The notes under the pieces were generated by a model, which saw nothing but the letters and a program-made list of their open reading frames with translations, was not told the DNA's origin and ran no database searches. A DNA stretch of 41,038 nt from Lysobacterales bacterium (GTDB lineage: Bacteria > Pseudomonadota > Gammaproteobacteria > Steroidobacterales > Steroidobacteraceae): assembly GCA_003819815.1 (NCBI GenBank), contig RPQJ01000020.1, forward strand, positions 1-41,038. The letters are read 5' to 3'. Within the stretch, counting starts at the first letter, position 1, and every line of letters begins with the position of its first letter. Made by a program: the position numbers and the translations under genes. Positions 8,121 to 11,144 of the stretch are shown one piece after another.

Positions 8121-8900
8121 TCAGGCCCGGATCTCGAAGCGGTCGGCGTCGAGATGGACCGGGAAGCTCTCGCGGTGGGAGCGCAGCGACTCGAGGTCGA
8201 GCACGACCGTCTCGACCCGGTCCCCGGCGCCCTCGCTCGACAGCGGTCGACCGACGAAGTCGACGGCGACGCTGTCGCCGGCGTAGGTGACGCCATTGCC
8301 GTCCTTGCCGACCCGATTGACGCCCACGACGTAGCACTGGTTCTCGATCGCACGGGCGCGCAGCAGCGTGGACCACGCCAGGGCGCGGCGCTGCGGCCAG
8401 TTCGCGACGTAGACGAGCGCATCGTAGTCGCCGAGGCTGCGGCTCCACACCGGGAAGCGCAGGTCGTAGCAGATCATCGGGCAGACACGCCAGCCCTTCA
8501 CGTCGACCACGAGGCGCCTGTCGCCCGCGGCATAGTGCGCGTGCTCGTTCGCCATGCGGAACAAATGCCGCTTGTCGTAGTGGACCGTCGAACCGTCGGG
8601 ACGCGCCCACACGAGACGGTTGTAGCGTCGCTCGCCGTCCTTGACGATGAGGCTGCCCATGATCGCGCAGCCGAGCGACGCGGCCTCTTCCCGCATCCAC
8701 TCGACGGTCGGACCGTGCATGTCCTCGGCGAGGCCCTCCGCGTCCATGCTGAAGCCGGTCGTGAACATCTCGGGCAGCACGACGAGGTCGGTGTGGCCGG
8801 CGAGCCCGCGAAAGCGCGCCGCGAGCGCGCGCCGGTTGGTGGCCGGGGCCTGCCACGCGAGGTCGGCCTGCACGAGGGTCACGCGGAGATGGGACGTCAT
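8121..8900 (-). CDS. yafV: Carbon-nitrogen hydrolase, omega-amidase YafV-like
   Basis: MTSHLRVTLVQADLAWQAPATNRRALAARF..LVVLPEMFTTGFSMDAEGLAE..; nitrilase-type E-K-C triad regions (VLPEMF, YDKRHLF, CYDLRFPVWSR). Confidence 0.85.
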   Translation of the reverse strand: MTSHLRVTLVQADLAWQAPATNRRALAARFRGLAGHTDLVVLPEMFTTGFSMDAEGLAEDMHGPTVEWMREEAASLGCAIMGSLIVKDGERRYNRLVWARPDGSTVHYDKRHLFRMANEHAHYAAGDRRLVVDVKGWRVCPMICYDLRFPVWSRSLGDYDALVYVANWPQRRALAWSTLLRARAIENQCYVVGVNRVGKDGNGVTYAGDSVAVDFVGRPLSSEGAGDRVETVVLDLESLRSHRESFPVHLDADRFEIRA

Positions 8901-10069
8901 CGGAGTCCTCCGGCGGCAGCGAGCCGCGACAGTCGCTCGCCGGCCGCGTCGAGCGTCGCGTCGTTCTTGGCGAAGCAGAAGCGCACGAGCCGCTCCGACG
9001 GCGGGTCGGACGAGAATACGGAAACCGGAATGGTAGCCACGCCGGCCTCCCGCGTCAGCCAGCGCGCGAACTCCACGTCCGGCAGGTCGCTGACCGCCGA
9101 ATAGTCCGCCAGCTGGAAGTAGGTGCCCCGGGACGGCACGCACTGGAGCGGCGTCGCCGCAAGAAGCGCGAGGAACCGGTCCCGCTTGCGGGTGTAGAAG
9201 TCCGCGAGCGTGGCGGCATGACCGGGCTCCGCCGTCATGAAGTCGGCGAGTGCTGCCTGCATCGGCGCCACGACCGCGAACTGCACGAACTGATGCACCT
9301 TGCGGAACTCGGCCGTGAGGCCCGGCGGCGCCACGCAGTAGCCGACCTTCCAGCCCGTGCAGTGGTAGGTCTTGCCGAATGAGGACACGACGAAGCTGCG
9401 CGCCGCGAGTTCAGGGCGCGAGTGCAGGCTGGCGTGGAGTCGAGCGTCGAGCACGACGTGCTCGTAGACCTCGTCGGAGAGCACGAGGGCGGCGCTGGGC
9501 TCGAGCACTGCGGACAGGGCGTCGAGATCCGCACCGGTCCAGGCCGCGCCGGTGGGATTGTGCGGCGAATTGACGATCACGAGGCGCGTGTGAGACGTGA
9601 GCGCGTCCGCGACGCGCTGCCAGTCGACCGCGAACCCCGGCCGCGCGAGCGGGACCCGTATCGTGCGCCCGCCGGCCAGCTCGACCGCGGGCTCGTACGA
9701 GTCGTAGGCGGGCTCGAGCACGATCACGTCGTCGCCCGGCCTCACGACCGCGTGGATCGCCGCGAACAGGGCTTCGGTCGCGCCCGAAGTGACGGTGACC
9801 TCGCTCCCCGGCGACACGCGGCGACCATAGAGCGCCTGCACCTTCGCGGCGATCGCCTCGACGAGCGCCGGCGCGCCCGCCATCGGTGCGTACTGGTTGG
9901 CGCCGCGCCGCATGTGCTCCGTCACGAGCTCGACGAGCCGCGCCGGCGGGTCGAAGTCCGGGAACCCTTGCGACAGGTTGATCGCGCCGCACTCCTGCGC
10001 GAGGCGCGACATCACCGTGAAGATCGTGGTGCCGACTCGCGGCAGTTTCGATTCGGGAGGTGGCGACAT
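8897..10069 (-). CDS. ybdL: Methionine/glutamine-type PLP aminotransferase (YbdL-like, class I/II)
   Basis: KLPRVGTTIFTVMSRLAQECGAINLSQGFPDFDPPARLVELV; NSPHNPTGAAW; SFGKTYHCTGWKVGYC; start chosen at ATG 10069; 4-nt overlap with yafV-like gene. Confidence 0.87.
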   Translation of the reverse strand: MSPPPESKLPRVGTTIFTVMSRLAQECGAINLSQGFPDFDPPARLVELVTEHMRRGANQYAPMAGAPALVEAIAAKVQALYGRRVSPGSEVTVTSGATEALFAAIHAVVRPGDDVIVLEPAYDSYEPAVELAGGRTIRVPLARPGFAVDWQRVADALTSHTRLVIVNSPHNPTGAAWTGADLDALSAVLEPSAALVLSDEVYEHVVLDARLHASLHSRPELAARSFVVSSFGKTYHCTGWKVGYCVAPPGLTAEFRKVHQFVQFAVVAPMQAALADFMTAEPGHAATLADFYTRKRDRFLALLAATPLQCVPSRGTYFQLADYSAVSDLPDVEFARWLTREAGVATIPVSVFSSDPPSERLVRFCFAKNDATLDAAGERLSRLAAAGGLR

Positions 10070-10076
10070 GCCGGCC

Positions 10077-10201
10077 GCAGCTCCCTTCACGAGGAGAGAG
10101 ACTTCGGCAGACACGCCGTGAACCCTTCCCTGGGGGCTCGCACGCCGCATCCCTGCGGCGTGACGGTCTGCCGAAGTCTCTCTCCTCCTGAAGGGCGCCG
10201 C
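10077..10201. repeat. Palindromic element A: ~36-nt imperfect inverted repeat (inner 22 bp perfect) flanking a 53-nt core
   Basis: gaggagagagacttcggcagac (10091-10112) is the exact reverse complement of 10166-10187; core 10113-10165 contains hairpin cacgccgca-tccc-tgcggcgtg. Confidence 0.95.
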
Positions 10202-10254
10202 TCCATCGGTTGCACGCCAAGCGCTCCCGCATCGATAAAGCCGGGACCACTGCA

Positions 10255-10377
10255 GGCCGGGGCTGCGGGAGGGAGAGGGTCCGCGAGACCGTCACGCCGC
10301 AGGGACGCGGCGTGCGAGCCCCCAGGGAAGGGTTCACGGCGTGTCTCGCGGACCCTCTCCCTCTCGCAGCCCCGGCC
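10255..10377. repeat. Palindromic element B: 35-bp inverted repeat (one mismatch) flanking a 53-nt core that is the reverse complement of element A's core
   Basis: Arms 10255-10289 / 10343-10377; core 10290-10342 differs from the reverse complement of 10113-10165 at one position. Confidence 0.95.
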
Positions 10378-10382
10378 GGTCA

Positions 10383-11144
10383 TCAGCCACGCTTCGGGGT
10401 CGACGCGGCGACGGCCGCCATCGCGGCGCCGATCAGGCCGGCATCGTTGCCGAATTCGGCGCGCACGATCTCGGCGCGGCTCTCGAGCAGCGGCCCGAAG
10501 TGCGCCCAGTTCTCGGTGACCCCGCCACCGATGATGAACACGTCGGGCCAGAGGAGCGCGTGGTACGCGGCGAGCACCTCGTTCACGGCGGCCGCCCAGG
10601 CCGGCCAGCCGAGCCCCTGGTCGACGCGCACCTTGGCTGATGCGCGGTGCTCCGCCTCCTGGCCGCGGACCTCGAGGTGGCCGAGCTCGGTATTCGGCAC
10701 CAGCCTGCCGTCGACGAAGATCGCCGTGCCGATGCCCGTGCCGAGCGTGAGCACCATCACCGTGCCGTCGCGGCCACGGCCGGCGCCGAGCGTCATCTCT
10801 GCGACCCCGGCGGCATCCGCATCGTTCAGGAACGCAACGGGGCGCCGCAGGCGCTCCTCGAGCAGCGCCTGGGCATTGGTGCCGATCCAGCGCCGGTCGA
10901 CGTTCGCCGCGGTCCAAGCGACGCCACGCTTCGCGACTGCGGGGAAAGCGAGCCCGACGGGCCCGTCCGAGGGCAGCTCGCGCGCGATGGCAGCCAGGAG
11001 GTCGATCACCGCGACGGGCGCTGCGTCCGCCGGGGTCGGTCGCTTCACGACCTCGCCCAGAACGCGGCCCGCGGTCGCGTCGACCCGTCCGGCCTTGACG
11101 AAGGACCCGCCGACGTCGAAAGCAAGGATCGGCGCTGCGGCCAC
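10383..11144 (-). CDS. ppgK: Polyphosphate glucokinase (ROK family)
   Basis: ILAFDVGGSFVKAGRVD; TAANVDRRWIGTNAQALLEERLRRPVAFLNDADAAGVAEMTLGAGRGRDGTVMVLTLGTGIGTAIFVDGRLVPNTELGHLEVRGQEAEHRAS - PpgK pattern. Confidence 0.88.
   Translation of the reverse strand: MAAAPILAFDVGGSFVKAGRVDATAGRVLGEVVKRPTPADAAPVAVIDLLAAIARELPSDGPVGLAFPAVAKRGVAWTAANVDRRWIGTNAQALLEERLRRPVAFLNDADAAGVAEMTLGAGRGRDGTVMVLTLGTGIGTAIFVDGRLVPNTELGHLEVRGQEAEHRASAKVRVDQGLGWPAWAAAVNEVLAAYHALLWPDVFIIGGGVTENWAHFGPLLESRAEIVRAEFGNDAGLIGAAMAAVAASTPKRG

Follow-up and report, generated by a model that had tools for sequence, protein, structure and literature searches.

A dispersed family of palindromic elements in the Steroidobacteraceae presenting two predicted CsrA/RsmA-type hexaloops

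Two palindromic elements lying back to back in a 41,038-nt stretch of DNA from a Steroidobacteraceae bacterium (contig RPQJ01000020.1 of assembly GCA_003819815.1; hereafter the window) were found to belong to a multicopy family, which is best explained, with a probability of roughly 0.6 in our estimation, as a dispersed structured RNA that, judging from its structure and loops, would be transcribed and bound by CsrA/RsmA. This reading draws on the existence of the family, its structure, the covariation of its stem, selection on one strand, a consensus in the loops, a match or near-match to the TwoAYGGAY RNA, and the presence of csrA in the genus.

Element A occupied positions 10077-10201 with its RNA strand, defined here as the one bearing ANGGAN hexaloops (the ANGGAN strand), on the minus strand, and element B occupied 10255-10377 with its RNA strand on the plus strand; the spacer between them (10202-10254) carried no promoter signal common to the copies. 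The arms of A (10077-10112 and 10166-10201, 36 nt each) were 92% complementary and formed a 36-bp stem, P1, with three mismatches and a perfect inner 22 bp, and those of B (10255-10289 and 10343-10377, 35 nt each) were 97% complementary and formed a 35-bp P1. The two cores (10113-10165 in A, 10290-10342 in B) were reverse complements at 52 of 53 positions. These coordinates, arm lengths and core identity were as given in a previous sequence-only reading of this DNA, and a search of the whole window agreed with it that there is no third copy therein. In element B, P1 closed a junction with two hairpins: P2 (10293-10314, plus strand), with the hexaloop AGGGAC at 10301-10306, and P3 (10321-10332, plus strand), CCC-AGGGAA-GGG, with the hexaloop at 10324-10329. 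P3 was drawn following the consensus of the family; when the sequence was folded singly, its stem shifted and the loop opened to 8 nt. The same junction was found in A, with the loops AGGGAU in P2 (10149-10154) and AGGGAA in P3 (10126-10131), both on the minus strand, and all four loops were of the CsrA type. Elements A and B scored 103.2 and 105.7 bits and folded at -100.5 kcal/mol (z -10.2) and -115 kcal/mol (z -12.3), respectively; over all four strands of A and B the folding z-scores were -10 to -12, and none of 200 shuffles was as good.

Both neighboring genes were encoded on the minus strand, namely a ROK-family gene (10383-11144, PF00480), the 3' end of which abuts element B, and a class I/II aminotransferase gene (8897-10069, PF00155), which starts 7 nt past the 3' end of the A RNA. 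Since A ends only a few nucleotides before the gene start on the same strand, it may be part of the aminotransferase leader. A possible aminotransferase Shine-Dalgarno, AAGGGAG, was also noticed within 10077-10090; it belongs to the outer 3' side of the stem and would be paired once A folds.

BLAST yielded 23 matches in the window genome (2.76-Mb assembly, 213 contigs) and further matches in all eight genus relatives, each copy having the conserved core between long self-pairing arms that varied from copy to copy. Neither of the outcomes that the sequence-only reading had named as fatal to its proposal, only two copies with none in relatives or arms that are not self-complementary, was thus encountered, and the multicopy structured-RNA family it had envisaged was borne out by a covariance model, R1, which was built from 44 sequences and found 12-33 copies per genome in nine genomes of the genus. 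With the same model, 69 of 200 family genomes had at least one copy, and 41 of 197 order genomes, representing 25 genera, had copies as well; eight order genomes scored more fully held 10-74 copies each. The copies from other genera and families likewise had near-perfect arms of other sequence. Meanwhile, the element was not found in a phage collection searched with the query used. Copies were often located at contig ends (G003:C334, G006:C60, G006:C300, G231:C9, G297:C43, and G309:C259), suggesting that the palindromes probably break assemblies and that the real copy numbers are higher.

In the R1 structure, 94.2% of cells paired, compared with 64.0% in shuffled alignments and with 36-53% after a displacement of 1-3 columns, although this percentage leans upward because the structure was derived from the same sequences. 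Not hanging on the model-derived structure alone, the covariation count showed that 20 of 20 modelled P1 pairs covary with changes on both sides, and comparison of orthologues revealed matched changes in both arms at the same locus of neighboring species (e.g., G004 versus G007). The stems (median 33 bp) were ~92-95% Watson-Crick with 3-4% G·U despite widely different sequences. As this perfection, with its few G·U pairs, goes beyond what RNA selection alone would produce, an added DNA-level correction between the arms is plausible. The arms, ending ~37 nt from the core, shared a weak consensus, approximately TCCGG..ttCCGGGaGAC, the 5' arm being G-rich and the 3' arm C-rich on the RNA strand; outside the stem, no conserved sequence or base-composition signal was observed. 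The description of the arms as unrelated therefore holds in that their sequences differ between copies, but not entirely, as many copies together disclose the weak consensus.

Since mutation affects the two strands of a palindrome equally, G·T and A·C mismatches are expected in equal numbers except where the folded form of only one strand is under selection. The G·U:A·C ratio on the ANGGAN strand was 127:32 before and 111:30 after deduplication (p 4e-12), with 56 copies of the deduplicated set leaning to one side and 12 to the other, and 61 copies from other genera gave 56:10. The deduplication was greedy at 72%; single-linkage grouping of arms had merged 105 copies and was of no use. The lower P3 helix on the ANGGAN strand varied between G-C and G-U and between A-U and G-U. 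The preponderance of G·U rather than A·C mismatches in the stem indicated selection on a single strand, and the asymmetry points to RNA, or folded single-stranded DNA, on the ANGGAN strand. In folded single-stranded DNA, too, G·T is better tolerated than A·C. Together with the arm covariation, this asymmetry upheld the earlier proposition that the structure of the stem, not its sequence, is kept.

The CsrA-type loops had escaped the sequence-only reading. They lie on the other strand: read opposite to the A core as first presented, the core forms two hairpins with ANGGAN hexaloops. Loop positions 2 and 6 were variable, positions 1 (A), 3-4 (GG) and 5 (A) were nearly constant, and the C-G pairs closing both loops were invariant across the 44 sequences. 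CANGGANG occurred twice in 98 of 124 copies, once in 23 and not at all in 3, and nearly every copy from other genera and families had two such loops. A high-affinity CsrA/RsmE site is an ANGGAX hexaloop placed directly on a stem (PMC4005645), and the hexaloops here likewise sit directly on C-G-closed stems. In addition, a common P3 variant, UACAGGGAUGUA, matched the CsrA SELEX consensus RUACARGGAUGU, and the distance of ~24 nt between the two loops falls within the range of 10-63 nt over which one CsrA dimer bridges sites (PMC7652899). As for the protein, csrA was found in three genus genomes (G003, G005, and G008), adjoining alaS in G003 and G008. It was not found in the window genome (G000), from the assembly of which alaS and its region are missing as well, and thus its absence is most likely due to an assembly gap. 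A family relative, G019, was observed to hold 10 CsrA-like genes and ~21 elements.

Among known RNAs, the closest likeness was to TwoAYGGAY (Rfam RF01731; Weinberg 2010, PMC2864571), which was earlier proposed to bind CsrA on motif grounds (PMC4333381). The two share a variable outer stem and, in the junction beneath it, two hairpins with ANGGAY loops in equal order and on the same strand; the element thus reproduces the TwoAYGGAY topology and strand with a relaxed loop. They differ in that the loops here are ANGGAN with G frequent at position 2 (AGGGAC and AGGGAA in the window are not strictly AYGGAY), the inner hairpins are shorter, and there are many copies per genome with back-to-back pairs. 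The RF01731 model matched a G019 copy at 44.6 bits, above the gathering cut-off of 43, and genus copies (G008, G004) at 26.7-41.9 bits, below it, and these matches lay on the ANGGAN strand. No copy in G000, those of the window included, reached E<=1 with RF01731, and an Rfam scan of the window gave nothing above threshold, a permissive scan returning only chance hairpin matches. The element also resembles the sponge RNAs CsrB/CsrC/RsmX/Y/Z, in which GGA hairpin loops likewise recur as sites for CsrA/RsmA. Those RNAs, however, are encoded by one to few genes with many sites and their own promoters, whereas the dispersed element has dozens of copies with two sites each and without a common promoter; comparison of the flanks outside the stem revealed no conserved promoter and terminator of the CsrB/RsmZ type.

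Of 31 neighboring copies at most 400 nt apart, 30 were back to back with their ANGGAN strands outward and their centers 133-334 nt from each other. A simple gene finder based on codon usage called both neighboring genes at 72 loci, of which 36 lay between convergent, 28 between co-directional and 8 between divergent genes; in the gene order of the window itself, 4 of 35 were convergent. No strand preference was seen for single copies flanked by co-directional genes (9 sense, 14 antisense). Beside the element, no promoter, terminator or AT-rich upstream region common to the copies was found, and no U run followed the stem.

As for the spread of the element, pairs from different loci of the window genome were homologous up to approximately the pair limits and no further, which suggests that a pair moves as a unit. 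The linker of ygiQ, a radical-SAM gene, contained the element in frame in five species (L138, L141, L142, L144, and L040), in the sense orientation in two (G000, G007) and antisense in the other three (G004, G005, G008). In-place inversion through the paired arms would be the simplest account of the two orientations, and independent insertions are possible. In G006, ygiQ lacked the element, its linker was 31-42 residues shorter, and neither arm was present. This empty site spoke against the suggestion that the core inserts into, or templates, existing palindromes, as did the weak arm consensus and the limits of pair homology. No target-site duplications around the pairs were seen by eye. The linked REP transposase (RAYT) that the sequence-only reading had proposed to look for was likewise not found: none of six Y1_Tnp loci had an element within ~1.5 kb. 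On plasmid pDCA (NZ_KU922118, L283:43-1614), an ISAs1-family insertion sequence carried one outward-facing element inside each end, lying between terminal repeats of 16 bp, CAGGGCAATCGCACTA, and a direct repeat of 10 bp, AGGTTGGGGT; it adjoins a haloalkane dehalogenase gene and is identical in NZ_KU922121. The ISAs1 transposase was rejected as a general mover, as ISAs1 genes in G003, G006, G007 and five other plasmids came without elements, and 29 of 32 element-bearing genomes had no ISAs1 gene.

Several of these properties recall REP/BIME/REPIN sequences, which are also dispersed and palindromic, form inverted pairs, and lie mostly at gene 3' ends and sometimes within genes; the inverted pairs here occupy extragenic sites, the ygiQ copies being the exception. 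We therefore considered a REP/REPIN-like mobile element read as folded single-stranded DNA, in which the loops would be transposase contacts and the likeness to CsrA sites would be due to chance. The nearly strict back-to-back pairing, the blocks of homology as long as a pair that recur at different loci within one genome, the sites between convergent genes, and intragenic copies such as those known for REPs (PMC3733652) would all fit, and the strand asymmetry is compatible as well, given that G·T also beats A·C in folded single-stranded DNA. We nevertheless regard this account as unlikely: the invariant loop positions are those that CsrA reads, there is the Rfam match, the Y1 transposase genes have no elements nearby, and the element, at ~125 nt with a sequence-free stem and a three-way junction, has neither the GTAG tag nor a linked RAYT. 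REP dimers within long palindromes (A. variabilis GTAG-15, H. neapolitanus CGTC-1; PMC3733652) come closer in having a conserved repeat inside a longer palindrome, but their outer palindrome has one consensus, whereas that of the present element varies with each copy.

The excess of convergent loci and the very stable stems would also suit a bidirectional transcription terminator or 3'-end RNA stabilizer for convergent genes. Such a role is improbable, however, as the stem is not followed by a U run, the copies inside ygiQ would cut the gene short, and the conserved loops and strand-specific selection would be left unaccounted for. Least probable of all, and very much so, is a process at the level of DNA only, in which a conserved core rides on a palindrome and template switching during replication keeps its arms identical, with no role for RNA. 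It would account for the near-perfect Watson-Crick pairing of such diverse stems, but it predicts G·T equal to A·C, contrary to the 111:30 and 56:10 observed, which disfavors it as the sole cause, and it does not account for the loop consensus. The CsrA/RsmA reading has its own difficulties, namely that the stem is longer than CsrA needs, that no promoter or terminator is shared, that single copies flanked by co-directional genes have no strand bias relative to the neighboring gene, that the ygiQ copies occur in both orientations, and that the genus copies fall below the Rfam cut-off.

According to the CsrA/RsmA reading, the element would act as a dispersed structured RNA of ~125 nt on the ANGGAN strand (minus for A, plus for B), in which a ~36-bp stem, free in sequence but kept in pairing, presents two short hairpins whose ANGGAN hexaloops would both be gripped by one CsrA/RsmA dimer. 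Such binding may titrate the protein or mark the carrying transcript. The element has come to occupy new sites, in many cases as two copies back to back. More tentatively, a proliferating mobile RNA with two predicted high-affinity CsrA/RsmA sites might overlay the genome with a movable layer of control or titration by CsrA, with the stem kept by pairing alone and the strict back-to-back pair as the transposing form.

CsrA sponges have so far been single or few sRNA genes; if the proposed reading is true, repeats that spread through a genome could titrate or redirect a global regulator. The family also provides the orphan Rfam motif TwoAYGGAY with a clear strand and numerous likely relatives, and it offers an unusually clean natural experiment in covariation, with more than 100 stems of one shape and different sequences.
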